DNA of 64,000 nt from an uncultured Tropicimonas sp. (lineage in GTDB: Bacteria > Pseudomonadota > Alphaproteobacteria > Rhodobacterales > Rhodobacteraceae), in NCBI GenBank assembly GCA_947497945.1, contig CANMIP010000028.1, positions 1-64,000 of the forward strand. The letters are read 5' to 3'. The notes under the pieces are model-generated. The model saw only the letters and a program-made list of their open reading frames with translations, did no database searches and had not been told where the DNA came from. Made by a program: the position numbers and the translations under genes. Positions 10,443 through 47,019 of the stretch are shown here, piece after piece. Positions within the stretch are counted from its first letter, which is position 1. Each line of letters begins with the position of its first letter.

Positions 10443-10751
10443 TTGAAAGACAACGTGAAAGCCGGGAGCGGAAGCAAACTCGCACAGTATGGGATGTGGG
10501 CCTGCTGCATCGTCATGTTGGTTCCGGTCGGCGCCTACCTGCTGGCAGGCGGCGCAAGTGGCGGTACTTTGCAGACGATCACGGCATTCGCGCCGCTTTC
10601 CCTGTGCCTCGGCATGCACCTCGTGATGCACAAGATGATGGGGCGATCCTGCCACGGCCATTCCGACAAGACAGCTGAGGAGATCCCTGAAAAACCGGCA
10701 CTCCTCGAGCACAGACCGGACGTGAAGGGCAGATCAATCGCAGCGGAATGA
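10443..10751 (+). CDS. Small membrane protein, DUF2933-like
   Basis: 102 residues starting at a TTG at 10443 behind an AAAGGGA ribosome site. Two hydrophobic segments are visible; the second ends in PLSLCLGMHLVMHKMMGRSCHG, similar to the LLCVGMHFFMHGGHGGHG ending of the DUF2933 protein at 31409. His, Met and Cys in this motif could bind copper. The tail is longer than in DUF2933 proteins. It overlaps the next gene by ATGA, so translation is coupled. Confidence 0.7.
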   Translation: MKDNVKAGSGSKLAQYGMWACCIVMLVPVGAYLLAGGASGGTLQTITAFAPLSLCLGMHLVMHKMMGRSCHGHSDKTAEEIPEKPALLEHRPDVKGRSIAAE

Positions 10752-31676: not shown

Positions 31677-34055
31677 TCAGATTTTGGTGCTGCGCAGGCG
31701 AAGCGAGTTGAGCACGACCGAGATCGAGGAGGCGCTCATGGCGAAGGCGGCGAACATCGGGCTGATAAGGATCCCGAAGAGCGGGAAGAGGATGCCCGCC
31801 GCGACCGGCACGCCAGCCGCGTTGTAGATGAGGGCAAAGAACAGGTTCTGGCGGATGTTGCGCATAGTCGCGCTCGCCAGCCGCCTTGCCCGGACGATGC
31901 CGTCGAGATTGCCCTTCACCAGGGTGATGCCGGCGCTCTCGATGGCGACATCCGCCCCGGTGCCCATGGCAATACCGACATCGGCCTGTGCCAGGGCGGG
32001 CGCGTCGTTCACGCCATCGCCAGCCATGGCGACCTTGCGACCCTCCTCCTGCAATTCGCGAATGATGCGGGCCTTGTCCTCGGGGAGAACGTCGGCGCGG
32101 ATCTCGTCGATACCGAGCTGTACCGCCACCGCCGCCGCGGTGCGCTCGTTGTCGCCGGTTGCCATGATGATGCGGAAGCCCAGAGCGTGCAGGGACTTGA
32201 GCGCGGCGGGAGTGGTTTCCTTGACCGGATCGGCCACGCAGACCAGCCCGGCCACCGCGCCGTCGAGCACCACGAACATCACCGTTTCGCCAGAGTCACG
32301 CCGCGTATTGGCGCGCTGTGTCAGCTCTTCGGCATCCAGCCCAAGGTCCGAGACCAGTTTCAGGTTGCCGAGCGCCACCGACCGTCCGTCGACGCGGCCG
32401 GTCACGCCCTTGCCGGTGACCGCCTCGAACTCGTCTGCCGATCCAAGGCGCACGCCGCGTCCCTCGGCGCCTGAAACGATCGCTTCGGCCAGGGGATGTT
32501 CGGAGCCCTTCTCCAGCGAGGCCGCGAGCCGCAGCACCTCGTCCTCGTCATGGCCCGGTTCAGGCAGCACGGCCACGAGTTGCGGCTTGCCCATTGTGAG
32601 CGTGCCGGTCTTGTCGACGATCAGCGTGTCGACCTTCTCGAAGCGTTCCAGCGCCTCGGCATTCTTGATCAGCACACCCGCCTGCGCGCCGCGGCCGGAG
32701 GCCGTCATGATCGACATCGGCGTCGCCAGTCCGAGTGCACAGGGACAGGCAATGATCAGCACCGCCACGGCCGCGACGAGCGCGTAGGAGAGCGCCGGCT
32801 GCGGCCCCCAGATCGCCCAGCCGATGAAGGCAAGCACCGCAATCGCGATCACCGCTGGAACGAAGATACCGGCAACTCTGTCGGCATATTTCTGGATCGG
32901 CGCGCGAGATCGCTGCGCGTTGGAGACCATCTCGACGATCTGCGCGAGCATGGTCTCGGAACCGACGCGAGTCGCCTCCATCACGAAGCTGCCGGTGCCG
33001 TTGATGGTCGCGCCGGTGACGCTGTCGCCGTCGACCTTTTCGACAGGTACCGGCTCGCCGGTGATCATGCTCTCGTCAACCGAGGAGCGGCCTTCGACCA
33101 CGACTCCATCCACCGGCACCTTGTCACCTGGGCGCACCCGAAGCCTGTCGCCTGGATGTACGTCGTCCAGAGGGATTTCTTCCTCGGTTCCATCAGGCCG
33201 CAGGATCCGCGCCGATTTAGCCGCCATGTCGAGCAAGGCGCGAATGGCTTTTCCGGTCCCCTCACGGGCGCGCAACTCCATAACCTGGCCGAGCAGGACG
33301 AGTGTCACGATCACGGCCGCAGCCTCGAAGTATACGCCGACATGGCCTTCGGGATCGCGGAAACCGTCAGGGAAGATGCCGGGCGCCAGCACGGCTGCAC
33401 TACTGAACAGCCAGGCCGCCATCACGCCCATCGCGATCAGCGAGAACATGTTGAGGTTGCGCGTGCGGAACGAGTTCCAACCACGCACGAGGAAGGGCCA
33501 GCCGCACCACATGACCACCGGTGTCCCGAGGATCAGTTCGATCCACAGCGTTGCGCGCTCACCGAAGATCTCCCGAACTCCGGGGAAACCAAGATAAGGA
33601 CCCATGGTCAGGATCAGTAGCGGGACGGTCAGTGCCGCACCGACCCAGAACCTGCGCTGGAAGTCCACCAACTCCGGGTTCGGCCCATCCGCCTGCATAG
33701 CCGCTGATTCCAGCTCCAATCCCATGCCGCAGAGCGGGCAAGATCCCGGCTCCACCTGGCGAACCTCCGAGTGCATCGGGCAGGTATAGACGGTGCCTTC
33801 CCAGCCAGACGGAACCGTATCGAATTGTGTGCTAACGGTCCCAGAATGCCGGGAATGATGGTTTCCATCACAGGCCTGATGCGCATGGTGGCCAGAATGC
33901 GTGTGATCGCCGCCGGTCAGGTCAGCTTCGGTGACAAGGTGCATACTGCATTTTGGGCAATCTCCCGGCTCATCCTGACGGATCTCGGGATGCATCGGAC
34001 AAACATAGATGGGCGGGACTTCAGGTGAAGATGAATGCTGCTTTTGATCGTGCAT
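31677..34055 (-). CDS. Cu/Ag P1B-type ATPase with two N-terminal CPMH domains
   Basis: 792 residues. The N-terminal part has two copies of the heavy-metal-binding motif CPMHxExRQxEPGxCPxCxM (residues 19-38 and 92-111) separated by a His-rich run (51-70). The core has TGE, CPC in [22 protein letters not shown] and GDGVNDAP. This layout is that of SilP/CopB-like Cu(I)/Ag(I) exporters, unlike the HMA-domain CopA at 557. It would pump from cytosol to periplasm. The promoter at 34086-34116 has a CueR/HmrR-type dyad, so both ATPases are probably coregulated. Confidence 0.95.
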
Positions 34056-34085
34056 CGTGGCGTCCTCTCGAAGCGAGTCGCTGCC

Positions 34086-34116
34086 AATATGAGGCTTCCG
34101 GTAACTGGAAGGTCAA
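34086..34116 (-). promoter_or_regulatory. CueR/HmrR-type promoter-operator of the second Cu/Ag ATPase operon
   Basis: On the minus strand: TTGACC, a 19-bp spacer with TTCC-AGTTAC-CGGAAG, then CATATT, a good -10. The match to the copA promoter is close. Confidence 0.87.
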
Positions 34117-34269
34117 ATGCCGGAGAGAGGTTTTGGCTCACTTGTCCGTGATCGCGTGAATACCATCTGCAGACGCGCCGTCTGCGCCGGACGAGAGCGC
34201 CGGGATCCACATTTTCGCTTGTCCATGGATGTGGCGGTTGGATATCGGACCCGGGCTGCGACCAGACAC

Positions 34270-34788
34270 CTATTCCGCTGGTTGCAATGTTGGTGTTCCC
34301 ATCACGGCCCTCGGATCTTCGACGTAGTCCCCCAGTCGTGCTTTTCCTCGAAGCCGAGCATCGTACGGATCTTCAGTTTTGGAATAGAGCGCCTCATCCT
34401 CGTGCAGGTCCCGTTTCACCGGCACCCACGGATAGAAACGTTTGATGATCTCGCCGTTGGGAATGTTCACCGAGTTGGTGTCGTGTCCAGCATTGAAGAC
34501 CTGGATGCCCAGCCCATCCGTTGTTTGGCAAAGATCGGCGATCTGGCCCAAGTCGCGAGCGTTGATATTGCAGAAGATATTGCGCCATCGCACCGACGGA
34601 TCTGAGAAGAAATCGGGGAAGCGCCCGTAGTCCTGCGGTTCCATCACATTGCCGATGCGCAACCCGTCGCAAGATCGAATTTGCCCTGAGATGCAGATAT
34701 GAACCTGCGTGAAGGGAGTGCCGACGGGAAAACTGCGGGGCCCGCAACCAGCAACCGAGTGGAACCGGAACTGATGGTGCACAAACAA
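34270..34788 (-). pseudogene. C-terminal remnant of an NAD-dependent epimerase/dehydratase
   Basis: The 172-codon frame has no good start (TTG at 34788). It contains a block familiar from the C-terminal half of SDR-type epimerase/dehydratase proteins: CDGLRIGNVMEPQDYGRFPDFF, NIFCNINARDLGQIADLC, TDGLGIQVFNAGHDTNSV and a final EALYSKTE. The N-terminal Rossmann glycine motif and YxxxK are missing. So this is a truncated relic, not an active enzyme. The ATG at 34644 could still start a 124-residue fragment. It lies between two metal ATPases and may mark a recombination joint. Confidence 0.65.
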
Positions 34789-34880
34789 TCATGTCGGGCC
34801 AGTCAGATCCGAATTCTCAGTAGCCCTGACGTTTTTGTCGATGCTCCAAAAAATAGAACCATCGCGTTCGACATTGGCGC

Positions 34881-34911
34881 TTGAAGCTACAGTTGCTGTA
34901 GATCCTATCTT
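34881..34911 (+). promoter_or_regulatory. MerR-type promoter-operator of the Zn/Cd ATPase
   Basis: TTGAAG, then a 19-bp spacer containing the dyad CTACAG-TTG-CTGTAG, then TATCTT. The dyad core differs from the copper set and matches the operators at 46462-46492 and 47129-47159. The ATPase starts 35 bp downstream. Confidence 0.87.
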
Positions 34912-34946
34912 CAGGCCTGACTGCAGAATCGCTCAAGGAGGCTCCT

Positions 34947-37316
34947 ATGTCCGCGGACGAGCACACACACAGCAGCAACAGTGCCGACAAGGCCCGCCAC
35001 CCACAGGTGCAGGAAACGCATGGCAGTGATTTGGCATGTGGCAGCTGTTGCGGTGATGTGGCCCCGAAGGGCGACATTACCGCTGCGGGCCGTCAGTTCC
35101 GTGTGAACGGTCTCGATTGTGCGGAAGAGATCGCGATCCTGAGTCGGGCCCTTGGACCAGCGGTAGGCGGAGATGCGAACCTTGCATTCGACGTCATCAA
35201 CGGAAAGATGGTTGTTCTCAACTCTGCCGAGGCAATCAGTGTTGCGCAGATCGAGAAGATCGTCGCCTCCACGGGTATGACCGCCAAGCCTTGGAGCGAC
35301 GATACCGCCGAACAAGATCAAGTAGCGCACCACAGGCGATTGAAACAGTTTACCGGAATAAGCGGTGGCTTCTGGTTTGCTGGATTCTTGTACCACTTCA
35401 TCGAAACTGGAGTGACCGGAGCCGTAGATCTTTTTTCTGGGCACGGCGAGGCGCCGATGCCGCTGCCCGAAATCATCCTCTTTGTGGTCGCGGTCGTGTT
35501 CGGCGTCTGGTTAGTGGCCCCCAAGGCCCTATCAGCCGCGCGGCGGTTCGCCCCAGACATGAACTTGCTGATGGTGGTAGCGGTCGCTGGCGCCATTGGG
35601 CTTGGGGAATTTTTCGAAGCGGCAACAGTCGCATTCTTCTTTTCTCTTTCTTTAACGCTCGAAAGCTGGAGCATCGGCCGTGCCCGCAATGCGGTTTCGG
35701 CTCTGCTGGACCTTGCCCCACCGACGGCACGCTTGCGCTATGACGACGGTTCGGAGGCGGACGTTCCCGCGTCATTGGTGACGGTCGGAGCAGCCTTTGT
35801 CGTGCGCGGCGGCGACCGCATCGCACTTGATGGTGAGGTCGTTGAAGGACGCGGTGATGTGGACCAGGCCCCAATCACTGGCGAAAGCGCGCTTGTCGCC
35901 AAGGAACCGGGTGACGAGGTCTATGCCGGAACAATCAACGGCGACGGCACACTGCTGGTTAGATCCACAAAGCCCGCCAATGAGACAGTCCTGTCCAGGA
36001 TCATCCGCATGGTCGGAGACGCCCATTCCAAGCGTGCAGAGGTAGAACAATGGGTGACGAAATTCGCCCGCATCTACACGCCGGTCGTGATGATCATGGC
36101 GGTTCTCATTGCTCTGTTGCCACCCCTGCTTGCAGGCGGCGCCTGGGATTACTGGTTCTACAATGCTCTGGTTCTGTTGGTTATCGCCTGCCCCTGCGCA
36201 TTGGTCATCTCCACCCCTGTCTCCATTGTCGCGGCACTGGCATCATCCGCGCGCAACGGCGTCCTGATCAAAGGCGGCGCCTACGTGGAAGCTCCTGGCC
36301 GGACAACAGCACTGGCGATGGACAAAACCGGGACGTTGACCATGGGTGAGCCGGAAGTAGCGGCAGTTCATCCGCTCGGTGGCGTATCCGAGCGTGATCT
36401 GCTGACTGTGGCGGCGAGCCTCGAGGCACGGTCCTCGCACCCCTTGGCGCGCGCCATTCTCGCGCGGGCCGAAATCGACGGGATATCTGTGTCAGCCGCC
36501 GACGATACCCGCACGGTACCCGGCCGCGGGCTGGAAGGCCGCGCTCACGACCGGTCAGTCTGGCTTGGCTCAGACCGGTTTGCAGAGGAGAAAGGAATCG
36601 ACGCGGAGATCCCGAAGGCATTGCGCGACAAGATCGAAAATGCAGGAAGCACGCTGGTCGTGGTGGGTGACGAGGCGGGTATTATCGGATTGCTCGAACT
36701 GCGTGATCGCATCCGGCCAGACGCCAAGGGAATCGTGGCGCGGCTTCACGCACAAGGCGTGAAAACTATCGTCATGCTGACGGGCGACAATGAGCGTACT
36801 GCACGGGCGGTCGCCTCCGAGGTCGGAATCGACGAGGTGCGCGCAGAACTTCTGCCCGAGGACAAGGTGACAGCCATCGAGGAACTGGTCGCAGCCGGTG
36901 GAGTCGTTGCGATGATTGGCGACGGAGTGAACGATGCCCCGGCCATGGCGCGGGCACATTTCGCGATCGCAATGGGAGCAGTCGGCTCGGACGCTGCGAT
37001 CGAGACCGCGGATATTGCGCTGATGACCGACGATATCGGCAGAGTGCCCTGGCTCATCGCGCATTCTCGCCGAACCATGGCGATCATTCGTCAAAACATC
37101 GGGGTCTCGTTGGCGACCAAGGCGGCTTTTGTCATAGCGACCGCTCTTGGCATGGCCAGCATGTGGGGCGCCATCGCTGCGGATGTGGGGGTGTCTTTGC
37201 TGGTGGTCGCCAACGCACTTCGGCTGCTGAACGGACGGGACCATGAAGTAACGCAGTCCGACAGCGAGCACATTGACCAGGGCATGGTGCAAGGCGCTCT
37301 GGCGCATCGGCATTGA
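34947..37316 (+). CDS. Zn/Cd/Pb-type P1B ATPase (ZntA/CadA-like)
   Basis: 789 residues. The N-terminal part has a His-containing head (HTHSSNS), CGSCCG at residues 31-36 and a degenerate HMA-like domain with GLDCAEE (Cys 58). The core has TGE, DKTGT, SHPLA and GDGVNDAP, with the transport motif CPCALVIS. The CPCALVIS form is typical of divalent-metal (Zn, Cd, Pb, Co) exporters rather than copper. Its promoter has the CTACAG dyad assigned to the second MerR regulator at 46591. Confidence 0.93.
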   Translation: MSADEHTHSSNSADKARHPQVQETHGSDLACGSCCGDVAPKGDITAAGRQFRVNGLDCAEEIAILSRALGPAVGGDANLAFDVINGKMVVLNSAEAISVAQIEKIVASTGMTAKPWSDDTAEQDQVAHHRRLKQFTGISGGFWFAGFLYHFIETGVTGAVDLFSGHGEAPMPLPEIILFVVAVVFGVWLVAPKALSAARRFAPDMNLLMVVAVAGAIGLGEFFEAATVAFFFSLSLTLESWSIGRARNAVSALLDLAPPTARLRYDDGSEADVPASLVTVGAAFVVRGGDRIALDGEVVEGRGDVDQAPITGESALVAKEPGDEVYAGTINGDGTLLVRSTKPANETVLSRIIRMVGDAHSKRAEVEQWVTKFARIYTPVVMIMAVLIALLPPLLAGGAWDYWFYNALVLLVIACPCALVISTPVSIVAALASSARNGVLIKGGAYVEAPGRTTALAMDKTGTLTMGEPEVAAVHPLGGVSERDLLTVAASLEARSSHPLARAILARAEIDGISVSAADDTRTVPGRGLEGRAHDRSVWLGSDRFAEEKGIDAEIPKALRDKIENAGSTLVVVGDEAGIIGLLELRDRIRPDAKGIVARLHAQGVKTIVMLTGDNERTARAVASEVGIDEVRAELLPEDKVTAIEELVAAGGVVAMIGDGVNDAPAMARAHFAIAMGAVGSDAAIETADIALMTDDIGRVPWLIAHSRRTMAIIRQNIGVSLATKAAFVIATALGMASMWGAIAADVGVSLLVVANALRLLNGRDHEVTQSDSEHIDQGMVQGALAHRH

Positions 37317-37379
37317 TCCAGAGTAGGCTGGTCGCAGAGGCAACTCAAAAAAACAGACCTTTCAAAAGGGCCTTGAGCA

Positions 37380-37892
37380 GTGACAACCTACCGACTTTCC
37401 CGGCGCTTTGCGTTGTTTGGCGGCATCTCCACGGTTCTGACCGGCTGCGCAAGCAAGTTTCAGTCCTATAGCGGGCCCGAAGTGACACGGCTGCGGATAT
37501 ACAAAGCTCAGCGACTGCTTGTCCTCGATAGCGAGGACCGCGTGTTGCGGACTTACCCGATCGGACTCGGCTTCGCGCCCGCAGGACACAAGCAATTCGA
37601 AGGGGATGGACGAACGCCCGAAGGGTCCTACGTCATCGATCGACGGAACCCGGATAGCACATATCATCTCTCCATCGGAATCTCATATCCGAATGCGGCG
37701 GACGTCGCTTTCGCAGAGGCGCAAGGGAAGTCTCCCGGTGGCGACATCTTCATTCACGGTGGTCCACGGCGCGGCATAGAGCCGATGAATGTCCGCGACT
37801 GGACGGCCGGCTGTATCTCGGTCACGGACCGGAACATCGAAGATGTATATGCCATGGTTCGAGACGGCACGCCGGTCGACATCTTTTCCTGA
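37380..37892 (+). CDS. Lipoprotein L,D-transpeptidase (YkuD domain)
   Basis: 170 residues starting at a GTG at 37380. A lipobox (STVLTGCAS) is followed by the YkuD domain (LRIYKAQRLLVLDSEDRVLRTYPIGLG) and the catalytic pattern FIHGGPRRG...DWTAGCISV. It lacks the usual twin-arginine signal of the other two. It follows the Zn/Cd ATPase by 63 bp and may be cotranscribed. It is the third L,D-transpeptidase in the window. Confidence 0.9.
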   Translation: MTTYRLSRRFALFGGISTVLTGCASKFQSYSGPEVTRLRIYKAQRLLVLDSEDRVLRTYPIGLGFAPAGHKQFEGDGRTPEGSYVIDRRNPDSTYHLSIGISYPNAADVAFAEAQGKSPGGDIFIHGGPRRGIEPMNVRDWTAGCISVTDRNIEDVYAMVRDGTPVDIFS

Positions 37893-37973
37893 TGGTATTT
37901 GGGGCGCTCCTGGTTAGGATTCCTACGGCAGGAACTGGTGGTTGCGCTTCATTTTTCCGCTCCCGGCCTTGGA

Positions 37974-38732
37974 TCAGGCAAAGCGACGGCGCAAAGCGAC
38001 GTTGAACGCCTCGATTGCGATGACCATTACGATCACGGCGAGGGTGACGCTCGCGGCCTTGTCGTATTGAAATGAGCGCACGTACGTCTGGATATAGAAA
38101 CCGATACCGCCGGCGCCGACAATCCCGAGAATGAGCGACTCACGCAGGTTCAGTTCGAACCGAAAGATCGTGTCACGGGCCACGACAGGCGCCATCTGGG
38201 GCCAGATCGCGAAGCGGAGCCGCGCCAGCGGCCCGGCCCCAACGCTCTCCAACGCCTCGATGGGTGCCCGGGAAACACCGTCGATCGCCTCGGCGTAGAA
38301 CTTGGCCAACATTCCCGTGGCATGGATTGCGACGGCGATCATTCCAGGCAATGGACCGAGCCCAACTGCGCCAACCATCAGCATTGCCACCAAGATCAAC
38401 GGGACCGCCCGGATGAATGCGAGCATCAAACGGGCCGGCCGATGCACTGCGGGAGGTACCATGGTTTCGGATGCGAGGATCCCAAGGGGTATGGACAGCA
38501 AAATGGCACCAAGGGTGCCGAGGATCGCTATCCTAAGGGTTTCGGCACTGCCTTTAGCAATTTCACCCATCACAGTAGGGTCAGGCGGGATCATCCGTCC
38601 GATGAACCCGGCCATCCGAGGGCCAGCCGACATCAGACGAGACAACTCGACATCGACAGTGGCAAAGGACCAGAGGACAGCGCACGCAACCAGCGCCCCT
38701 GCAAAAAATCCACTCAGCCCGCGGGATCGCAT
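37974..38732 (-). CDS. PhnE-like ABC transporter permease
   Basis: 252 residues with about six membrane helices and the permease signature loop (GVSRAPIEALESVGAGPLARLRFAIWPQMAPVVARDTIFRFELNLRESLILGIVGAGGIG). It is the membrane part of an importer with the ATPase at 38732 and the binding protein at 39511, with which it overlaps. The family takes up phosphonate or phosphite, but the regulator context points to a different substrate. Confidence 0.9.
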   Translation of the reverse strand: MRSRGLSGFFAGALVACAVLWSFATVDVELSRLMSAGPRMAGFIGRMIPPDPTVMGEIAKGSAETLRIAILGTLGAILLSIPLGILASETMVPPAVHRPARLMLAFIRAVPLILVAMLMVGAVGLGPLPGMIAVAIHATGMLAKFYAEAIDGVSRAPIEALESVGAGPLARLRFAIWPQMAPVVARDTIFRFELNLRESLILGIVGAGGIGFYIQTYVRSFQYDKAASVTLAVIVMVIAIEAFNVALRRRFA

Positions 38733-39514
38733 CAGTTCACCGCCCGCAGGCTGACGCCGGACACCGACACTTCCTGTCGATAGAGTGCCGTCGTCCGATC
38801 TTCGCTGAGCTGCGCGGCCGGTATCGAGAAGAGGATACTCCCACTACGCAAACCCACAATCCGGTCAGCGAAACGACCGGCGAGATCGGGCTGGTGCGAC
38901 GAAAAGAGGATAGCCGCGCCGCGCGCACGCGCCACTTTGGTCAATAGCGTCAAAATGTCGACTGCGCGCACAGGATCCAGGTTGCTGACGGGCTCGTCGG
39001 CAAGAATCAGTTTTGGCTCCTGCGCCAGGCACCGTGCGATGGCTACGCGCTGCCGCTGCCCGCCGCTGAGACTGTCTACACGCCGATCAGCGAGATCTGC
39101 GATCCCGCAATCGGCGAGAGCCGTGCGGGCGATCTCGCAATCGCGCGTTGAAGGAGATCCGAAAGCAGCGCGTAGGCAGGGCATTCTGCCCAGTCGACCG
39201 TTCAGCACATTTCGGAACACCGTCGAACGTTCGACCAGCGCGAACTCCTGAAAGATGAACCCCGTGTCCGCGCACTGTTCTCGCGGCGGTCTCTGGTCGG
39301 GATCAAGCTGAGTACCAAGAACGGATACCCGGCCGAGCCAACCGCGGAGGCGTCCGTCGAGCAACGCAAGTAGTGTTGTCTTGCCAGCCCCGGACGGGCC
39401 GAGGATCGCGACAGCCTCGCCAGCCGCAATCTGAATTGACACCCGTTCCAGCGACGGGAGATCCGCGCCCGGATGCGCGTAGCTCACGTCGTCAATTGCG
39501 GCGGCCAGGATCAT
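38732..39514 (-). CDS. PhnC-like ABC transporter ATPase
   Basis: 260 residues with Walker A LGPSGAGKTTLL, the signature LSGGQRQRVAIARCL and Walker B KLILADEPVSNLD. It pairs with the PhnE-like permease (shared base at 38732) and the binding protein gene (4-bp overlap at 39511-39514). The gene order D-C-E on the minus strand is that of PhnDCE-type importers. Confidence 0.93.
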   Translation of the reverse strand: MILAAAIDDVSYAHPGADLPSLERVSIQIAAGEAVAILGPSGAGKTTLLALLDGRLRGWLGRVSVLGTQLDPDQRPPREQCADTGFIFQEFALVERSTVFRNVLNGRLGRMPCLRAAFGSPSTRDCEIARTALADCGIADLADRRVDSLSGGQRQRVAIARCLAQEPKLILADEPVSNLDPVRAVDILTLLTKVARARGAAILFSSHQPDLAGRFADRIVGLRSGSILFSIPAAQLSEDRTTALYRQEVSVSGVSLRAVN

Positions 39515-40386
39515 TTCAGGAACCTGTATTGCCGAGCCATGTCGCGCACGCCCTCGAATGCGGAGGGATCGGCCACAACATACCCATCCGGCCCGTAGAG
39601 GTAGCGGAGTTTGTCGCGATGTTCCTGTTCGTTGAGCTTGAGCATCGCCTGAACGAACCGTGCCTGCAGGTCTTCGTCGAGCCCGGGGCGCGCGATCACC
39701 ACATGGCTCGGGATCGCCTCGCTTTCGGCGATCCAGGTCACTTCGGCCTGTTGAGCCGGGGTGAGGAGCAAGTCGGCATATTGGCTCGCGCCTGCAGCGT
39801 CGACCAGGCCCTCAGCCATCGCTTGCATTGCTTGCTGGTACCCGCCCGCGAAAAAGACGCGACCAAAGAACTCGTCTGCCGCTCCGGGGTCCTGGATCAG
39901 CCCGGCCCTTTCGAACTCCGACAGTGGATATAGATAACCTGATTCCGATATTGGGTCGGCAAAGGCAATGTCTCGACCTTCAAGATCAGCGAGTGCCTGG
40001 ATCTCGCTGTCGCGTCGCACGAAGATTCGACCGGTGTAGTTTGGCACACCGCGATAAACCTCAGAAAGGAGTGGCACCGCGCCGATCTCGGCTTCGGCCA
40101 GCACAAAGGGCAGTGCTCCCATGAATGAAATGTCGGCGTCGCCATTCCGGAGCGCCTCAACTGCCGCAGCATGGTCGAAGGTGACAAAGCCTTCGACAGG
40201 CGCGCCGACTTCCTTCCCAAGCCACCCGGTGATTGCCTCGATATCGCCCAAGAGCTTTTCGGGATTCTCTTGTGGGATGAATGCGATGCGCAAAGCCTCT
40301 TCCTGCGCGAGAAGCGGCATGCCAAGGACCATTCCGGTCGTGCAGACAAATGCCATGAGCGCGCGACGGGTGATCCGGAGTATCAT
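39511..40386 (-). CDS. PhnD-like periplasmic substrate-binding protein
   Basis: 291 residues with a signal peptide (FVCTTGMVLGMPLLA) and the PhnD/phosphonate-binding layout: LRIAFIPQENPEKLL, the DADISFMGALPFVLA ligand region and ALADLEGRDIAFADPISESGYLYP. The last motif is the PhnD serine loop. The start overlaps the diheme peroxidase stop. The ligand of this copy is not established. Its neighbours are a DtxR/MntR regulator and a peroxidase, so a metal complex is possible. Confidence 0.88.
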   Translation of the reverse strand: MILRITRRALMAFVCTTGMVLGMPLLAQEEALRIAFIPQENPEKLLGDIEAITGWLGKEVGAPVEGFVTFDHAAAVEALRNGDADISFMGALPFVLAEAEIGAVPLLSEVYRGVPNYTGRIFVRRDSEIQALADLEGRDIAFADPISESGYLYPLSEFERAGLIQDPGAADEFFGRVFFAGGYQQAMQAMAEGLVDAAGASQYADLLLTPAQQAEVTWIAESEAIPSHVVIARPGLDEDLQARFVQAMLKLNEQEHRDKLRYLYGPDGYVVADPSAFEGVRDMARQYRFLK

Positions 40387-42263
40387 CAGAAGGTCCTCTT
40401 CTCCATCGAACCGGCCTCAGCCTTGAACGCCGCCCAACTTTTTTCCGCCGCCGCCCAGTCTTCTGCGCGTACGGCCGAGGCGACCTCGGTCAAGCGTTCG
40501 GCAAGCGCGTACACTTCAGGCCGGGCGGCAAGGTTGATCATCGTACTGGCGTCGGCGGCGAGATCCGCTGCCACCGTATCCGTCAACAGCAGGATGTGCA
40601 TCGCGTCCCGTTGGGGCAGCAGCGAATCCAGTGTCGAAGCGAAAGTTGTCAATTCGGAGAAAGCCAGTTTGAATGACGTGTTTTCGGCGTCGAAGGCTTC
40701 GTAGGGCTCGTCGGCCGCTCCGATCGCCTCGAGATAGGCGGTAAGGTCATCTCGTTCACCGGCGGCCAGGCCGAGTGCCTTGGTGTCATCAAACCAGTCA
40801 ACCACCGCCGCGAGCGTCGGCATTGAACCATCATGGAAATAGGGCGCTGTGTAAACGCTCCCGAGCAATGTCGGCGTATCGAACGCACCCGCCCGCGCAC
40901 CGTCGTAGGCCGGCGTAGTCGAGCCGATATCATGCGCCTTCCGGTCGAGAAAGTTCGCGTCAGGTATGTGGCAATCGGCGCAGGAGCGGTCGCTGAGCCC
41001 GACAAAGGATCGGTTGAAAATCACTTCACCACGGCGGGCCGCCTCGGAGCTCAACTCGGACAACCGCCCGTCGGCGGTTAACATTGAATTGGGCAGGAAA
41101 TCGAATTCCAGCATGTAGGCGAGCAGCGCGTCGAGCATGAAGGGCGTCGGCTCGTCACCACCAAATTCACCTACGATCACGTTGCGGGTGAACTCGCGAA
41201 GCGACGCGAAGCGGCCATCGCGGCCGTATGGTCCCGTAAAGCGCAGGCCGCGCAGGCTCGGAATGTCGATCGGGTCGTCGCGCCGGTCATTGAAGATCGG
41301 GTTGAAAAAGGCACCGTCCACGTCAATGGCTCCAGGTTGATGGCTGGCGCCAGGAATGAACAAGCGCTGGTTTATGTCCGATCGATTGTGACAGGTCGAG
41401 CAGGCAATTCCCAGATCTCGGGCCGGACTGCCGAAAATCTGCGCACTGTCAAACAGCATGTCGCCATAGGCAACGAGTGGCAGGGACGCTTCGTCAATCC
41501 CTTGTTCCTCGAAATTCAGGACGAGGCGAGGCAGCGGGTCCTGATCGAAAATGTCGGAACCCGGCGGCAGACTCGGCGGCACCTCTATTTCGCGACCGCT
41601 AAGTGCAGCCGTTTCTGGCATTGCGTTGAGCGTCTTGCGCGGAGCGAAAACATCAACAAGGTAATTCGCGGCAAGGTAATCGGAGACGGCCTTGCGTGCG
41701 GCGCTCATGGTCTCTGCGTCAGCTGACATTGCGCCAATCCCGAGAACGCCGGTTGACCCCGAACTGCTGGTCATTTCCAGCCAGGCGAGTCCTATTCGCC
41801 GTGCGGCTTCCGGATCGGCGACAGCAATGGCTGCCCCGAACGCCCGATAGAGTTCGCGCGCTGTCCGAACTGCTTGTTGAGCGGTCGCGGACGCTTCGGC
41901 CGCGAGTGCCGCGTCGAGTTCTTCTTCGATCCGCAATGCTATCAGTCGAGTGGCTTCGGCAAAAACGTCCTGTCGGTTTTCCCGAAAGATGGCATCAAGA
42001 AGCGGCGCGGCATCGACTTCGCTTCCGGCCTCTATCCACGAAATTGCGCCTGAAGAAAATTCCGAATTCCGATAAGGCTCCAACCAAGCTGCCTCGATTT
42101 CATCCCAGGGCAATGGCTCGAGATTGCCCAGAAAAAGCGTCAACCGATAGGCGGCGGCTTCTGGAATCCAGGGCGCTTCCTTTGCCGGTGTCGCGTAGGT
42201 CGGATTATTCACAAGAAGCGAACTGGCCATCGCAGCGACCGTCAACCCGAGCCATTTCCGCAT
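40386..42263 (-). CDS. Diheme cytochrome c peroxidase (MauG-like) with extra helical domains
   Basis: 625 residues from the ATG at 42263, exported by a signal peptide. The core has two haem sites, CSTCH at 288-292 and CADCH at 428-432, as in bacterial cytochrome c peroxidases and MauG. It is about 300 residues longer than usual: an N-terminal region (30-230) and a C-terminal region (520-625) both look like helical bundles. It leads the operon with PhnDCE, with an overlap at 40386. It would reduce peroxide or oxidise a periplasmic substrate for the importer. The extensions were not matched to a family. Confidence 0.88.
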   Translation of the reverse strand: MRKWLGLTVAAMASSLLVNNPTYATPAKEAPWIPEAAAYRLTLFLGNLEPLPWDEIEAAWLEPYRNSEFSSGAISWIEAGSEVDAAPLLDAIFRENRQDVFAEATRLIALRIEEELDAALAAEASATAQQAVRTARELYRAFGAAIAVADPEAARRIGLAWLEMTSSSGSTGVLGIGAMSADAETMSAARKAVSDYLAANYLVDVFAPRKTLNAMPETAALSGREIEVPPSLPPGSDIFDQDPLPRLVLNFEEQGIDEASLPLVAYGDMLFDSAQIFGSPARDLGIACSTCHNRSDINQRLFIPGASHQPGAIDVDGAFFNPIFNDRRDDPIDIPSLRGLRFTGPYGRDGRFASLREFTRNVIVGEFGGDEPTPFMLDALLAYMLEFDFLPNSMLTADGRLSELSSEAARRGEVIFNRSFVGLSDRSCADCHIPDANFLDRKAHDIGSTTPAYDGARAGAFDTPTLLGSVYTAPYFHDGSMPTLAAVVDWFDDTKALGLAAGERDDLTAYLEAIGAADEPYEAFDAENTSFKLAFSELTTFASTLDSLLPQRDAMHILLLTDTVAADLAADASTMINLAARPEVYALAERLTEVASAVRAEDWAAAEKSWAAFKAEAGSMEKRTF

Positions 42264-42277
42264 TAGCACAGTCTCCA

Positions 42278-42300
42278 AAAGTTAGATAGGGCTAAATCTT
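42278..42300. promoter_or_regulatory. Candidate DtxR/MntR-type operator in the divergent promoter region
   Basis: AAAGTTAG-ATAGGG-CTAAATCTT: half-sites TTAG and CTAA separated by 6 bp, the same geometry as the known MntR box of E. coli (TAG-N6-CTA). It is 15 bp upstream of the peroxidase start and 55 bp upstream of the regulator start, so it could control both. Confidence 0.55.
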
Positions 42301-42354
42301 CTACCAAAAGCAAACAAGTTGTCAATCACTCCGTGTCGCTGCACAATCTCGGGC

Positions 42355-42816
42355 ATGACCAAGCTCCGATCACATGGGCCCAAGGCCCACGAAGCCGCTG
42401 ACAGGCCTCCAGAAGCTCAGGCGGAAGCTTTTGCCAATGTGCGTCAAGCCCACGAGAGTGAGATGGCGGAAGATTACGTGGAACTGATTGACGAGTTGAT
42501 CGAGACTCGAGGCGAGGCTCGTCCAATCGATATTGCCGAGCGCCTGGGAGTCAAACCTCCCACCGTCACTAAAAACATCTCGCGCCTGGAAAAGGCGGAT
42601 CTGGTTCGCCGTCAACGATACCGCGCAATCTTCCTGACGGAGCAAGGTCAGGCACTTGCACGCGCATGCCGGCGACGGCACAGAATCGTTGTTGCATTTC
42701 TTCGAAGCCTCGGCATCGACAAGGAAATCGCGGAACGCGATGCCGAAGGGATTGAACATCACGTGAGTGACGAGACATTGGCCGCATTCAAGAAACACGT
42801 CGGTGGCGTGCTATAG
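42355..42816 (+). CDS. DtxR/MntR-family metal-dependent regulator
   Basis: 153 residues from the ATG at 42355. The N-terminal winged helix reads ETRGEARPIDIAERLGVKPPTVTKNISRLEKADLV, followed by a dimerisation domain with ARACRRRHRIVVAFLRSLGI and DAEGIEHHVSDETLAAF. His, Glu and Cys residues there match the metal ligands of MntR-type proteins. It binds DNA when loaded with Mn(II) or Fe(II) and is likely to repress the divergent PhnDCE/peroxidase operon. Confidence 0.88.
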   Translation: MTKLRSHGPKAHEAADRPPEAQAEAFANVRQAHESEMAEDYVELIDELIETRGEARPIDIAERLGVKPPTVTKNISRLEKADLVRRQRYRAIFLTEQGQALARACRRRHRIVVAFLRSLGIDKEIAERDAEGIEHHVSDETLAAFKKHVGGVL

Positions 42817-42911
42817 CTTTCGCGTGATCGGAGCCCACTCGAAGAAGGCCCGCACTCAGTCTTGGGCAAGGCTTGCCACAAAGCCATCACGCAAGCTGGC
42901 GGCACAGCGGT

Positions 42912-43367
42912 TCAATTGCCTGGATAAGAGTTGAAGACTACTGTCGAACCGTCTTCCTTGATCAGAAAAACATCATAGGCATCACGGCGTTTTCCTTGAT
43001 CCATTCCCGGCGAACCGAGCGGCATATCCGGTACGGCAAGCCCGATTGCGTCAGGCCGTTCATCCAGCAACCTGCGAATTTCAGAGGCAGGTACATGGCC
43101 TTCGACAACATACCCGTCGACGATAGCCGTGTGACAGGAAACCATGCGCTGTGGAACGCCTTTGTCGAGTTTGAAGCGTACCAACAGCCCGGCAAACATA
43201 TCCTGCCCGGTTGGTGAGAACCCGTTTTCCCTGAGGTGCTCTATCCAGGCCAGACAACACCCGCAGCCATTGGTCTTGCGAACTTCGATCGGTGTGGCCT
43301 GCGCCAGCGCTTGCACGGCCGGCAGTAGTGACACAGCAAGTACCATCAGGAGAGCATTTGTCTTCAT
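42912..43367 (-). CDS. DUF411 periplasmic metal-binding protein
   Basis: 151 residues with a signal peptide (LLMVLAVSLLPAVQALA) and the DUF411 signature VRKTNGCGCCLAWIEHL, then RMVSCHTAIVDGYVVEGHVP and VPDMPLGSPGMD. It is a paralogue of the protein at 14388. It ends the operon of SCO, Dsb and PCuAC genes, which supports a copper role. Confidence 0.9.
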   Translation of the reverse strand: MKTNALLMVLAVSLLPAVQALAQATPIEVRKTNGCGCCLAWIEHLRENGFSPTGQDMFAGLLVRFKLDKGVPQRMVSCHTAIVDGYVVEGHVPASEIRRLLDERPDAIGLAVPDMPLGSPGMDQGKRRDAYDVFLIKEDGSTVVFNSYPGN

Positions 43368-43370
43368 CGA

Positions 43371-43622
43371 TCAGAGCCTTTGGGTAGTTGGATGGGCAAG
43401 TTCGCCGTAGAGCCGCTCCATGAGACGGGCACGCGCTTTAGCCAGAAGTACTTGCGTTGAGAAATCCTGCTCCTTGCGCTCGGACAAGCCACCCAGACGT
43501 TGGGCTTCTGCTGTCAAGCCCGGTGACGACGGCTCTTTGGTGAAGGTCCCGGCCAAGCTAATGGCAGCAACCGCAATGGAGCCGGCAATTGCGCCCCCAG
43601 CTTCAAGAAACCTGCGGCTCAT
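43371..43622 (-). CDS. Small anchored protein of unknown function
   Basis: 83 residues with an N-terminal twin-arginine-like hydrophobic segment (MSRRFLEAGGAIAGSIAVAAISLAG) and a basic, charged helix (LSERKEQDFSTQVLLAKARARLMERLYG). It overlaps the SCO gene stop by 4 bp and is followed 3 bp later by DUF411. No family was recognised. The small size and tight packing suggest an assembly factor of the same pathway. Confidence 0.65.
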   Translation of the reverse strand: MSRRFLEAGGAIAGSIAVAAISLAGTFTKEPSSPGLTAEAQRLGGLSERKEQDFSTQVLLAKARARLMERLYGELAHPTTQRL

Positions 43623-44248
43623 TTTGTCCCTTCCTTCTTGTCCTGCAATGCGCGTCGAATCTTGGGAACCGCAAATTCTGGTGGCTCGTGGTAGTCAATG
43701 GCGCTGACGAAACGGCCCGCAGAGTTGAACAGGAAGACGCTCGCCGTGTGGTTCATGGTGTAGTCACCTCCCTCGGTCGGAATCTTTTCCCAACGCACGC
43801 GAAACTCCTCGGCGGCGCGAGAAATCTGCTCTACCGATCCCGTCCAGCCGCGAATTGCGGGGTGAAAGTATCCAACGTACTCCGCCATCGCTTCGACAGT
43901 GTCTCGTTCCGGGTCGATCGTGATGAACACCACGTTCAGCGCCTGCGCTTCCGGCCCCAAGGCGTCAAGCCAACCGGATATGTCCGACAGAGTCGTCGGA
44001 CAGACATCCGGACAGAATGTAAACCCGAAGAACACCATGCTCGGGTGCCCGATCAGCGTTTCAGGGTCCACGTCATAACCCTCGTGGTCCGTCAGACGAA
44101 AACTCATCGAGTGGAGCGGTATGGGACGCAACCCATCCATCTGATCTGCGCCTGGCCCGTCAACCTGCCACCAACCAACAAAGAGAGACAAGGCCACAAG
44201 GCCGGCCGCAACAACGCCAGCGCCAAAGAGCCTGCGCCGCAAAATCAA
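43619..44248 (-). CDS. SCO1/SenC-family copper chaperone
   Basis: 209 residues with an N-terminal anchor and the SCO thioredoxin fold: FFGFTFCPDVCPTTLSDI with the CxxxC copper site and the later histidine in HTASVFLFNSAGRF. SCO proteins deliver copper to the CuA site of cytochrome oxidase or act as thiol reductases. It overlaps PCuAC by ATGA. A second SCO is at 45825. Confidence 0.93.
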   Translation of the reverse strand: MILRRRLFGAGVVAAGLVALSLFVGWWQVDGPGADQMDGLRPIPLHSMSFRLTDHEGYDVDPETLIGHPSMVFFGFTFCPDVCPTTLSDISGWLDALGPEAQALNVVFITIDPERDTVEAMAEYVGYFHPAIRGWTGSVEQISRAAEEFRVRWEKIPTEGGDYTMNHTASVFLFNSAGRFVSAIDYHEPPEFAVPKIRRALQDKKEGTK

Positions 44249-44715
44249 CCGTTCGGACCACGCGCCGCAATGCCCAATATGGGCACCATCACTGTCACCT
44301 CGCTTCCGTCGGAAAACAGAAGCTGCAATGCAAAACTGTCACCCTCCCTCAAAGGCGCTTGCAGCCGCATCAACATCGCATGCAATCCTCCGGGTTCCAG
44401 TGCGACGACCTCGCCCGGCCCGATCATAACATCGCCGGCGGGAGCCATCGAACTGACCCCTGAACCATCCGTACTCGTTCGGTGAATCTCGGGCATCCCG
44501 GAAACGTCTGTCCGAAGACCCACAAGGCTGACAGGGTCATCACCGGCGTTTCGAATGTCCATATAGGCAACGCCGGGGCGCGCCGTTCCGATCGACGCGC
44601 GAGACCAGGCGTTTTCGACGTCGATATCGGACGTTCCGGCGTTTGCGCCAATCGGTGTCATGGCGAAAAAGGCCAGCAAGGCCGCGGCTTTAGCCATTAT
44701 TGGTGTTTTTCTCAT
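44245..44715 (-). CDS. PCuAC-type periplasmic copper chaperone
   Basis: 156 residues from the ATG at 44715 with a signal peptide (KAAALLAFFAMTPIGANA). The copper-binding pattern is clear: MPEIHRTSTDGSGVSSMAPAG, then EPGGLHAMLM, that is H-X-M ligands of the H(M)X10MX21HXM type. PCuAC passes Cu(I) to SCO or directly to cytochrome oxidase. Its neighbour SCO is the expected partner. Confidence 0.94.
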   Translation of the reverse strand: MRKTPIMAKAAALLAFFAMTPIGANAGTSDIDVENAWSRASIGTARPGVAYMDIRNAGDDPVSLVGLRTDVSGMPEIHRTSTDGSGVSSMAPAGDVMIGPGEVVALEPGGLHAMLMRLQAPLREGDSFALQLLFSDGSEVTVMVPILGIAARGPNG

Positions 44716-44747
44716 TCGCTCTCTCTCCTGGGTCGAGCACCGGACCA

Positions 44748-45407
44748 TTATTTCCCCGACTGAGCCACTTCAGCGTCTACCAACGCGCGCAGCTCGGCTT
44801 CTCCAAACGGATCGAGGAGTTTGCCATTCACAAAGAAGGTCGGCGTCTGCCGAATGCCAACCGCTTCCACATCCGCCTTGTCCTGATTGAAAATGGCGAC
44901 GATGTCCGGCATTTTCATCTGCTTCGCAGCCGCTTCAACATCGAGGCCGGCCACCTTGGCGACGGCGCCTATCTTCTCGACCGATGGTGCGCCATGTGCC
45001 GCCCAGACATTCTGTTTGGCAAAGAGCGCCTCAAGAACCGGCTCGAATACTCCTTGCAGGCGAGCGGTTTCGAGGATCTTGATCGCTACTTCCGAGGGAT
45101 AGCCGTGAAACGGAGTGTAACGCAGAACCAGCCGCACATCGTCAGGATACTTCTTAAGGATATCCTTGACGATCGGGTGAAATGCCCTGCACGCCTCACA
45201 GGCCGGGTCGAGGAATTCGACGATGGTTACTGGCGCATCCGTGGCGCCGAAACTCGGCGAATACCCGCGTTCCAAGCGTTCCAGCAACTCGGGATCTAAT
45301 GCAGCACCGCTATCTTTCTGGCTCGGACGCGCTGCCCACCATGCTGCACCGCCAAAGCCTGCAACGAGAGCGCCACCACTCAAAAGCATCAAGGTTCTTC
45401 TGTTCAT
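44748..45407 (-). CDS. DsbA-family thiol oxidoreductase (CEAC active site)
   Basis: 219 residues with an anchor or signal (LMLLSGGALVAGFGGAAWWA) and a thioredoxin fold with FLDPACEACRAFHP and a cis-proline loop RQTPTFFVNG. The CxxC is CEAC rather than CPYC, which changes its redox potential. DsbB is encoded 1 bp upstream, so the two form an oxidising pair. The SCO and PCuAC neighbours contain cysteines or methionines that may depend on it. Confidence 0.9.
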   Translation of the reverse strand: MNRRTLMLLSGGALVAGFGGAAWWAARPSQKDSGAALDPELLERLERGYSPSFGATDAPVTIVEFLDPACEACRAFHPIVKDILKKYPDDVRLVLRYTPFHGYPSEVAIKILETARLQGVFEPVLEALFAKQNVWAAHGAPSVEKIGAVAKVAGLDVEAAAKQMKMPDIVAIFNQDKADVEAVGIRQTPTFFVNGKLLDPFGEAELRALVDAEVAQSGK

Positions 45408-45408
45408 G

Positions 45409-45828
45409 TCATGTCTCCGGTCTGGCCGCGGTCAACAGCCCAGTGATGGTTGCAAATGCAGCAAGCGAAAGCAGCGGGATAGGCAGACCGAGGAAAAGCT
45501 GGTTCTCGTCCGTACAAGAAGGACCACTCGCCGTGCAGGGCTGTATCGCTTCCGAGATCAGCCCGGCATAAAGACCCAGATGCCACATTGCGATCAGGCC
45601 ACCGATTACTCCGAGCGTTATCGCATATGGTCGGATGCCAAAATCGGACCTCCACGCCGCGATGCCCAGCACGACGGCCAACGGGAACATGAAAGCACGC
45701 TGGTACCAGCACAGAACGCAAGGCGCCTGTTGAAGAACCTCGCCAATGAACAAGACAAGAAGCGAGGCGAATAAGGCGAGCATCCAGGCCAGATATAACG
45801 CCGTGTCACCGGTCAAACGGAACTTCAT
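45409..45828 (-). CDS. dsbB: DsbB-family quinone-linked thiol oxidase
   Basis: 139 residues with four membrane helices, the first periplasmic pair in CVLCWYQR and a second pair in PCTASGPSCTD. DsbB passes electrons from DsbA to quinone. It overlaps the SCO stop by 4 bp and precedes the CEAC DsbA. Confidence 0.92.
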   Translation of the reverse strand: MKFRLTGDTALYLAWMLALFASLLVLFIGEVLQQAPCVLCWYQRAFMFPLAVVLGIAAWRSDFGIRPYAITLGVIGGLIAMWHLGLYAGLISEAIQPCTASGPSCTDENQLFLGLPIPLLSLAAFATITGLLTAARPET

Positions 45829-46433
45829 TGCTCGAGGTATCCTCCAAGTTCGGCCAGAATGTCCTCGGCTGGCGTGCCATACTGCCAGGATGTCACAAAT
45901 ACTGCCTGAGGATCGAACAGGAACAGCTGGGAAGAGTGACTCATGGCATAGTCGGTTGCGTCCTCCGAGGTATTCGCTTGTTCATAGAAAACGTGGAAGC
46001 TGTCCGCAGTTCTTGAGATCTGATCAGGGGTTCCGGATAGACCGATGATCCCCGCATCGAAAACCTCGACAAACTCGGCGAGCACCATCGGTGTATCCCG
46101 TCCGGGGTCAATCGATATGAAGAGTGGCTGCACTGAGGGTGCCGCATCCCCAAGCCCCGCCATCGCTGCAGAAACTTCGGAAAGAGTCATCGGGCACACA
46201 TCTGGACAGTTGGCGTATCCGAAAAACACCAGCATCCAGCGTCCTGAATAATCCTTCTCGCTGCGTAGCACGCCCATGTGGTCGGTGAGTTCAAATCTGG
46301 CACGGAACCCTTGTCCGGCGGACGCCTCCTGATCCTCGTCTCGGCGAGCTTCCCCCAACAAGAGAAGCCCGGACGCTATCGCCGAAATCACGACGAGTCC
46401 CCAGAGGACTTTCTGCAATCTGGATAGGTTCAT
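45825..46433 (-). CDS. SCO1/SenC-family copper chaperone, first in operon
   Basis: 202 residues with an N-terminal anchor (VLWGLVVISAIASGLLLLG) and the SCO site GYANCPDVCPMTLSEV, plus the later histidine in HSSQLFLFDPQAVF. It leads the seven-gene operon (SCO, DsbB, DsbA, PCuAC, SCO, small protein, DUF411). Its promoter has the CTACAG dyad at 46462-46492. Confidence 0.93.
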   Translation of the reverse strand: MNLSRLQKVLWGLVVISAIASGLLLLGEARRDEDQEASAGQGFRARFELTDHMGVLRSEKDYSGRWMLVFFGYANCPDVCPMTLSEVSAAMAGLGDAAPSVQPLFISIDPGRDTPMVLAEFVEVFDAGIIGLSGTPDQISRTADSFHVFYEQANTSEDATDYAMSHSSQLFLFDPQAVFVTSWQYGTPAEDILAELGGYLEQ

Positions 46434-46461
46434 TCTTGCTTCGCCCCTCGATCTGGGAGTC

Positions 46462-46492
46462 GACTTACAACCTGCAGCAGCTGTAGGTTCAA
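46462..46492 (-). promoter_or_regulatory. MerR-type promoter-operator of the SCO/Dsb/PCuAC operon
   Basis: On the minus strand: TTGAAC, a 19-bp spacer with CTACAG-CTG-CTGCAG, then TAAGTC. The site lies between the SCO operon and the MerR gene at 46591 that is read the other way, so autoregulation is possible. Confidence 0.85.
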
Positions 46493-46590
46493 GCCCTCCA
46501 GTGCCGACTACTCAGAATTCACGAGGATGTGAAAGCATTGCGCGCCGCAAGCGGAAAACCTACAAAAGCCATACGTTTTCGGAGGTAGAA

Positions 46591-47019
46591 ATGCTCTCTA
46601 TTGGAACTATGTCACGGAGAACTGGCACTAACGTCCAGACAATCCGCTACTACGAGGAAATTGGCCTCATGCCTGAGCCTGGAAGGTCAACCGGTGGCCA
46701 ACGGCGATATGATGAATCCGACTTGAATCGGTTGTCATTCATCCGCCATTCACGCCAACTTGGCTTCCCGCTCGACGCGATACGCGAACTGCTCGCCCTT
46801 TCCGACGGCCCCGACCAATCCTGCGAGGAGGTTGACGCCATTGCAACGCGGCAACTGAAACAGGTCGAGCAACGCATAGAACGGCTGGTCGCGCTCCGCA
46901 CCGAACTCGAACGCATGACCCGAGAGTGCAGTGGAGGCAATATCACCGAATGCAGGATTCTCGGAGTACTTCGCAACCATTCAGAATGCCTGACCAACCA
47001 TGACGAGATCGGGGCATAA
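46591..47019 (+). CDS. MerR-family regulator, second regulon
   Basis: 142 residues from the ATG at 46591 behind GGAGG. The MerR head reads LSIGTMSRRTGTNVQTIRYYEEIGLM, and the C terminus has cysteines in RECSGGNITECRILGVLRNHSEC. This cysteine arrangement differs from the CueR C-X7-C loop and resembles divalent-metal sensors of the ZntR/CadR/PbrR type. The three CTACAG operators in this window lie near genes it could control, including its own divergent promoter. Confidence 0.88.
   Translation: MLSIGTMSRRTGTNVQTIRYYEEIGLMPEPGRSTGGQRRYDESDLNRLSFIRHSRQLGFPLDAIRELLALSDGPDQSCEEVDAIATRQLKQVEQRIERLVALRTELERMTRECSGGNITECRILGVLRNHSECLTNHDEIGA

Follow-up and report, generated by a model that had tools for sequence, protein, structure and literature searches.

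We report here a four-gene operon with a divergent mntR gene in a contig of an uncultured Tropicimonas sp. (CANMIP010000028.1, whose first 64,000 nt are the stretch analysed, hereafter the window). The unit is probably a high-affinity transition-metal importer, repressed by MntR and equipped with a diheme protein as partner, and manganese is its most likely cargo. We read it as a metal importer because it shares an MntR box with other mntR-linked loci, occupies the place beside mntR that manganese importers hold elsewhere, and has lost the phosphite/phosphonate pocket of its binding-protein family. Gene order and linkage are conserved among relatives, the regulator is an MntR, its box is conserved, the slot is equivalent to that of known importers, and the pocket is changed. 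Import of a transition metal is likely on these grounds, and manganese is to be preferred, though more modestly and from sequence comparison, over iron or another metal. The inward direction of transport is inferred from the transporter family.

An MntR-linked operon with an altered binding pocket

Four minus-strand open reading frames (ORFs) run from 42278 down to 37974, and their neighbouring ends overlap by 1, 4, and 1 nt (Table 1). A first-pass annotation of the window had described overlapping genes for a diheme protein, PhnD, PhnC, and PhnE, and both ORF coordinates and domain matches bear this out. The substrate-binding protein matches PF12974 (PhnD-type binding proteins) at 189 bits over a cut-off of 27, and falls below the PhnD equivalog TIGR03431 (150 against 261 bits). 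The ATP-binding cassette (ABC) ATPase also scores below its equivalog.

Table 1 Features of the operon and its regulatory region, in window positions.
Feature	Positions	Strand	Basis
Diheme MauG/CCP-like protein gene	40386..42278	-	First ATG 42263, 625 aa; linked orthologues in 85 loci, 74 distinct
PhnD-family substrate-binding protein gene, altered pocket H72/E148/Y183/H228	39511..40386	-	PF12974, TIGR01098, pocket comparison, PtxB-like fold
PhnC-type ABC ATPase gene	38732..39514	-	ABC_tran 109 bits; TIGR02315 219 bits, cut-off 266
PhnE-type permease gene	37974..38732	-	BPD_transp_1 72 bits; TIGR01097 245 bits, cut-off 216.7
mntR, divergent regulator	42319..42816	+	ORF from TTG 42319, likely start ATG 42355; NF008273
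MntR-box-like dyad TTAG-N6-CTAA	42282..42295		Sole site in the genome; comparative conservation
Promoter-like hexamers of the operon: -35 TTGACA 42320-42325, -10 TAGAAG 42298-42303	42298..42325	-	Sequence and phylogenetic footprint

The divergent regulator, earlier assigned to the DtxR/MntR type, is specifically an MntR: it scores 194 bits against NF008273 (cut-off 153) and matches 2h09 (E. coli MntR) at E 1e-36. Residues D52, E55, H121, E143, E146, and H147 (165-aa numbering) align with the B. subtilis MntR positions that we take to be its metal ligands, and they are conserved in all 84 aligned sequences, namely that of the window and 83 fetched from the loci described below, 64 of the 83 being distinct at the DNA level. 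The TTAG-N6-CTAA dyad reported in the gap is also present, and by comparison with mntR-linked loci of relatives it is a predicted MntR box. The 5.79-Mb genome contains no other copy of it, against 42 copies of a reversed control pattern. When the regions upstream of the operon are compared across loci, 63 of the 66 distinct ones (or 83 of all 86, counting the window) carry a perfect copy, compared with 0.2% of base-shuffled sequences. Counted over distinct loci the dyad is perfect in 72 of 75, and 70 of those 72 have TTGACA at most 50 nt upstream of it. The loci without a perfect dyad are L096, with one mismatch, and L107 and L108, both without mntR. The promoter-like hexamers lie directly upstream of the dyad, and the -10 reads TAGATA in most relatives against TAGAAG here.

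Sixty genomes, the source genome included, were scanned for mntR and for a longer form of the box, TTAG-N6-CTAA-N-TTT, which was present in 15. Of the nine genomes of the genus, three carry the longer box (G000, G002, and G007), and they are exactly those in which mntR adjoins the diheme gene or what is left of it. The box also adjoins mntR in G012, G022, G042, and G057, where no linked operon came up in the diheme search. Twelve sites in eight other genomes, and a second site in G057, had no mntR within 1.5 kb on either side; this neighbour check left out seven sites in G037, G043, G055, and G057. The box pattern alone is thus unspecific, and it is its coincidence with mntR that serves as evidence.

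At E 1e-20 or better, 18 mntR loci were recovered from 16 of the 60 genomes, and a box was sought within 260 bp upstream of each. The neighbouring genes were NRAMP-type mntH in nine loci, always divergent to mntR; a Sit-type ABC operon in three, divergent in L153 and L155 and downstream on the same strand in L156; the operon described here in three, one of them truncated (L150); and, in one locus each, a ten-transmembrane (10-TM) protein gene, an oxidase with a ZIP-like gene, and an unassigned neighbour (an EamA fragment, L154). Nine of the 18 loci have a perfect box: the three with this operon, L152, L154, two of the three Sit loci (L153 and L155, beside sitA/sitB), one of the nine mntH loci (L157), and the locus of the PF11449 10-TM gene (L159). 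Two further mntH loci have a box with one mismatch, and ATAG-N6-CTAT variants occur in L156, L158, and L165. Since two or three mismatches are at chance level over 260 bp, perfect boxes alone were used as evidence. In L149, mntR is divergent from genes for a PF01297 binding protein, an ATPase, and two membrane proteins (the first PF00950), with the box between them; the regulators of L145, L148, and L149 all score above the MntR cut-off. The operon therefore occupies the slot of known manganese importers beside mntR.

The PF11449 gene is likewise divergent to a boxed mntR (L145, 327-1472). Profile libraries name it an arsenic efflux protein or heavy-metal exporter, names that may mislead; we take the gene in L145 and L159 to be MntX, on which Green et al. 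reportedly worked in 2013. A Vibrio MntX homologue is described as induced by manganese (PMC13274385).

A different pair stands in the slot of the operon in G017 (contig C9, L152/L167; 8117-10467 of L167), where multicopper oxidase and ZIP-like genes are divergent to a boxed mntR within a similar SCO/DUF411/Lnt/YkuD island. The ZIP-like protein matches ZIP at 31.6 bits, just under the cut-off of 35.1. This oxidase-plus-transporter pair is probably under MntR and parallels the combination of diheme protein and importer.

Phosphite and phosphonate binding proteins are described as holding the phosphorus-bound oxygens with an STS-H motif and a tyrosine, capped by Tyr or Asp (PMC5700983). We mapped the pocket positions of PtxB from P. 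stutzeri onto the binding protein by profile alignment, in which PtxB D16, Y49, Y94, S124, T125, S126, H155, and Y203 correspond to Q39, H72, Y117, S147, E148, S149, Y183, and H228. All 58 distinct orthologues aligned (the window and 57 others) share these eight residues, and so does L118. Three of the eight PtxB residues are retained (Tyr94, Ser124, and Ser126). The STS-H motif is altered in all 58, reading S-E-S with Tyr at the His position, and His stands at the Tyr49 and cap positions. For comparison we used 14 other PhnD-type proteins: ten chosen by hand from the 18 listed plasmid matches below the identity gap given in the next section, and four paralogue loci (L002, L124, L125, and L126, one from the source genome), with L003-L006 and L127 left out. 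None of these has E at position 148, which is occupied by T, A, or N, or His at 228; Tyr at 72 and His at 183 are each found in 13. A Glu in the oxyanion loop together with two new His residues makes phosphonate binding unlikely and metal binding likely, as far as residues can tell. The structural model of the protein (mean predicted local distance difference test, pLDDT, 84.7, weaker around 141-150) has PtxB, ArrX, AioX, HtxB, and PhnD as its top matches.

Conservation of the unit and its extended diheme protein

Relatives were collected by a diheme profile scan with one genome per species, from which the best 80 of 123 were taken; adding four plasmid regions with annotation and one genome of the same genus brings the set to 85 loci. 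Eleven of these duplicate another (L024 and L104 are the same contig), so that 74 are distinct in promoter and diheme gene. We found mntR in 83 of the 85 loci, PhnD in 82, PhnC in 80, and PhnE in 77 (72, 71, 69, and 66 of the 74 distinct loci). Every distinct locus of at least 19 kb has all five genes (49 of 49; 58 of 58 before removing duplicates). The survey of four-gene linkage that the first-pass annotation had suggested came out in favour of a fixed unit: all 65 distinct loci that hold the four transport genes have them in the same order (76 of 76 before removing duplicates), and mntR is present in 64 of these loci (75 of 76).

Nine loci are short of a transport gene. In eight the contig ends within the operon, and the ninth, L080 (Pontibrevibacter), has a deletion-like junction at about 11716-11925 where the diheme gene is joined to the final 70 codons of phnE; in a plasmid record of the same species, NZ_CP049815.1, the match extends across the entire diheme protein. 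A further deletion form, seen in L026 (D. shibae pDSHI03, 7460-10639), L025 (G007), and plasmid hits H93-H98, keeps mntR and about 92 codons of the diheme gene, followed directly in L026 by a P-type ATPase gene. Six listed plasmid records match the first 89 diheme residues only.

Among plasmids, the diheme protein has matches in 100 records, in 43 of them over at least 80% of its length, and 43 records hold PhnD relatives at 60-80% identity. Among the 60 PhnD records listed of 894, identity is at least 69% in the top 42 and drops to 32% in the next. One plasmid match, CP070278.1 (H23), is labelled Dysgonomonadaceae and has nearly the same size and the same match as the Martelella plasmid NZ_CP066788.1 (H22); it is probably a mislabelled or contaminating replicon. 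Wider profile scans of the phylum and class, in which no more than 7 or 8 candidates of each genome were scored, detected the diheme N-terminus in 2 of 398 phylum genomes and, at E 1e-40 or better, PhnD in 2 of the 289 genomes of the class, the source genome counted in each case. Both new hits have the four transport genes around them, and both genomes with the N-terminal profile have the operon, so the extended diheme form looks dedicated to it.

The diheme protein matches CCP_MauG at 38 bits, confined to its C-terminal half, and has two CxxCH motifs (residues 288-292 and 428-432). The curated MauG and MbnH models give 36 and 47 bits, with cut-offs of 444 and 363. Judging from its N-terminal sequence and family, the protein is apparently exported to the periplasm. 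It carries extensions of about 200 residues at the N-terminus and 95 residues at the C-terminus that are predicted to be helical. AlphaFold2 places helices at roughly residues 34-222, for the most part with confidence, and 530-624, with confidence from near residue 580. The extensions have no significant Pfam or PDB match, and no Pfam match to FTR1, M75, or DyP was found in them or in any of the four operon proteins. An EfeO/imelysin origin of the N-terminal extension was rejected because no Pfam M75 match appeared up to E 5. Foldseek returned no match to this extension at E 0.001 or better; its top rows were PsbQ-type and other helical proteins (E at least 0.35), with cytochrome c' and then imelysin (rank 28, E 2.8) lower down, and we conclude nothing from these. 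Diheme relatives without the N-terminal extension occur in L009-L011 and were not counted in the family; within the 12-18 kb read around them (L021-L023) there was no match to PhnD, PhnC, PhnE, or MntR.

The flanks of the unit in the window (31677-37316 and 42912-46433) hold two P-type ATPase genes, one of them covered by the domain scan, and YkuD, DUF411, and SCO genes, along with PCu(A)C-like and DsbA/DsbB genes recognised by sequence or from the annotation of relatives. Islands of this type recur on Roseobacter-group plasmids. Riboswitch control was set aside, as Rfam gave no match at gathering score in window positions 34000-47000.

Mechanism, cargo, and alternative readings

The first-pass annotation had proposed an importer for a metal complex or a metal-phosphonate. 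The regulator, box, and slot uphold a metal-regulated importer, while phosphonate or metal-phosphonate as cargo is unsupported because the STS-H motif is broken in all 58 aligned orthologues. We envisage, from sequence and comparison, that at high cytosolic manganese Mn-loaded MntR would bind TTAG-N6-CTAA directly behind the -10 and block transcription, and that under manganese scarcity all four operon proteins would be made. The PhnD-family protein, with its metal-type His/Glu/His/Tyr pocket, would then capture the metal and deliver it to the PhnC/PhnE importer. The periplasmic diheme protein might ready the metal by changing its oxidation state, such as by reducing Mn(III) in ligand complexes to Mn(II), or by the opposite reaction; other conceivable tasks are shielding metal and carrier from peroxide, or modifying the binding protein. 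A redox step on the cargo, suggested by analogy, is a tentative proposal. In its fullest form the reading is of a new type of redox-assisted manganese ABC importer, MntR-repressed and carried on plasmids of marine alphaproteobacteria, in which a rebuilt phosphite-binding fold with a two-His/Glu/Tyr site is fed by a dedicated, extended diheme enzyme interconverting Mn(II) and Mn(III), which might for instance release Mn from complexes of Mn(III) with ligands; as a whole this is speculative and rather unlikely.

Several observations weigh against an MntR-repressed manganese importer. The binding protein is of the PhnD family in both sequence and fold and passes the cut-off of TIGR01098, the phosphate/phosphite/phosphonate binding subfamily (148 against 112 bits), and the permease passes the phosphonate equivalog TIGR01097 (245 against 216.7 bits). 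The 85 loci are far from independent events, since 80 of them are the best of 123 relatives, mostly from the Roseobacter group and partly on related plasmids, and 11 of the 85 are duplicates. Four of the 18 mntR loci, all beside mntH, have no recognisable box, and among the nine mntH loci a perfect box occurs just once. The 10-TM neighbour is not secure as an importer and makes the weakest of the three box comparisons, because its identity as MntX is our assumption and the Vibrio homologue is manganese-induced. In L118 no recognised regulator stands in the 1.5 kb that the contig extends upstream of the operon. Copper and cytochrome genes are common, though not universal, around the unit. The AlphaFold2 model of the whole diheme protein is poor (mean pLDDT 62.8), leaving the heme domain without a trustworthy model. 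Finally, the source genome already has three ZnuA-family binding proteins, one of them Sit-like (L110, 71% identical to the SitA of L138, which stands beside a boxed mntR), and no NRAMP was found in it. The unit would thus be an additional importer, perhaps serving conditions or manganese species beyond those of Sit.

Among the alternatives, the one that survives best concerns the haem protein, which could be a plain periplasmic peroxide scavenger induced by manganese shortage with no part in transport. This is a serious possibility, although not one we favour: membership of the CCP/MauG family fits it, and the four genes could merely be co-regulated. However, the diheme gene overlaps the binding-protein gene in an order fixed across the 65 distinct loci, the extended N-terminus was detected in just 2 of the 398 phylum genomes scanned, both of which have the operon, and in G017 a boxed mntR lies beside another oxidase-plus-transporter pair.

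The main rival for the cargo is iron, as Fe(III) or Fe(II) held in the His/Glu/Tyr pocket in the manner of ferric-binding proteins, with the diheme protein as a ferroxidase or reductase. MntR proteins and NRAMP also handle iron, and diferric lactoferrin is among the structural matches of the same broad fold. Two cousins of the operon add to this case. L108 (4664-9665) has a divergent Fur-family regulator, in L107 (7977-11863) a Fur-family gene immediately precedes the diheme gene, and in both the upstream sequence appears by eye to resemble a Fur box, judged against what we take to be its consensus. L107 also has a divergent MntH gene (NF001923, 639 against 430 bits). Both Fur-family proteins are below all NCBIfam cut-offs, and the closest solved relatives of the L107 regulator are the Fur-family 4ray, presumably Magnetospirillum Fur, and two structures whose deposited name is ferric uptake regulation protein; these results do not distinguish Fur from Mur. 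Mur is a manganese sensor common in alphaproteobacteria, and the two regulators could be Mur. A mur gene is described as validated in R. pomeroyi (PMC4334477). An MntR with its manganese ligands is kept in 83 of the 85 loci and the box is common to sit, mntH, and 10-TM loci, which leaves iron improbable, if the strongest competitor to manganese.

Copper, another metal (Ni, Zn, or Co), or a metal chelate is still less probable. Copper and cytochrome-assembly genes and metal P-type ATPases do lie near most loci, but these neighbours vary: in the 58 long loci, before removing duplicates, SCO was found in 46, DUF411 in 45, P-type ATPase in 52, YkuD in 48, and CtaG in 25. L020, over 17.8 kb, has a heavy-metal P-type ATPase and yet no SCO, PCu(A)C, or DUF411, whereas mntR and the box hardly vary between loci.

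An importer of phosphonate or phosphite under incidental MntR control would agree with the family names, with the TIGR01098 and TIGR01097 matches, and with the retained Ser147, Ser149, and Tyr117. We set it aside as very improbable, since pocket and regulator contradict it: the STS-H motif is gone, PhnD and PhnC miss their equivalog cut-offs, and no C-P lyase or phosphite dehydrogenase gene is present in the four annotated neighbourhoods. Least probable of all is a maturation in the manner of MbnH or MauG, whereby the diheme protein would modify a residue of the binding protein and so enable metal binding; MbnH-type chemistry converts Trp to kynurenine, and despite the weak similarity to the MbnH and MauG models, Trp modification is disfavoured, as the window protein has only two Trp residues and both are replaced in some orthologues (W55 by Tyr in L108, W218 by Val in L020 and L027); modification of a Tyr is conceivable.

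Relation to known systems

The manganese importer thus proposed resembles SitABCD/MntABCD in being a manganese-regulated ABC system, and in G012 and G022 the Sit operon is divergent to mntR with the same box. It differs in using a PF12974 binding protein and a BPD_transp_1 permease, not the ZnuA-type PF01297 and ABC-3 components, and in adding a diheme protein. With PtxABC, HtxBCD, and PhnCDE it shares the transport-protein family and fold, but its pocket motif is broken, its regulator is a metal regulator, and its four annotated neighbourhoods hold no phosphorus-metabolism genes. Loci of the mntR-mntH and MntX type have the same regulator and in part the same box and divergent layout, with an unrelated type of transporter.

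EfeUOB has a comparable layout, with a periplasmic haem enzyme, a carrier, and a membrane importer in a metal-regulated operon. The analogy is one of layout only, as the operon lacks FTR1, M75/EfeO, and DyP matches and has an ABC transporter instead. For EfeB a peroxidase role is described among others proposed, and the role of EfeO/M is given as unclear (PMC9174327). The diheme protein has two CxxCH haem sites and a CCP_MauG domain in common with MbnH, MauG, and bacterial cytochrome c peroxidase, yet it is far below the curated MbnH and MauG cut-offs and carries helical extensions.

The first-pass annotation had ranked the unit as a candidate for an undescribed system. Within the open-access literature, no paper was found that combines MntR with PhnD and PhnE, or MntR with cytochrome c peroxidase and a phosphonate ABC transporter, and in broader searches no listed title or abstract start described the unit. 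A metal-regulated importer of this kind is apparently undescribed. If our reading is correct, many Roseobacter-group genomes and plasmids would carry metal transport genes under a phosphonate-transport annotation, and counts of phosphorus and trace-metal genes in marine genomics would change. A binding protein of the PhnD/PtxB type would have switched from an oxyanion to a metal, and a diheme enzyme would be paired with a metal importer. This offers a testable claim about how marine bacteria reach scarce or oxidised manganese: in many of them the unit, often plasmid-borne, is probably an undescribed uptake route for manganese or a similar metal.

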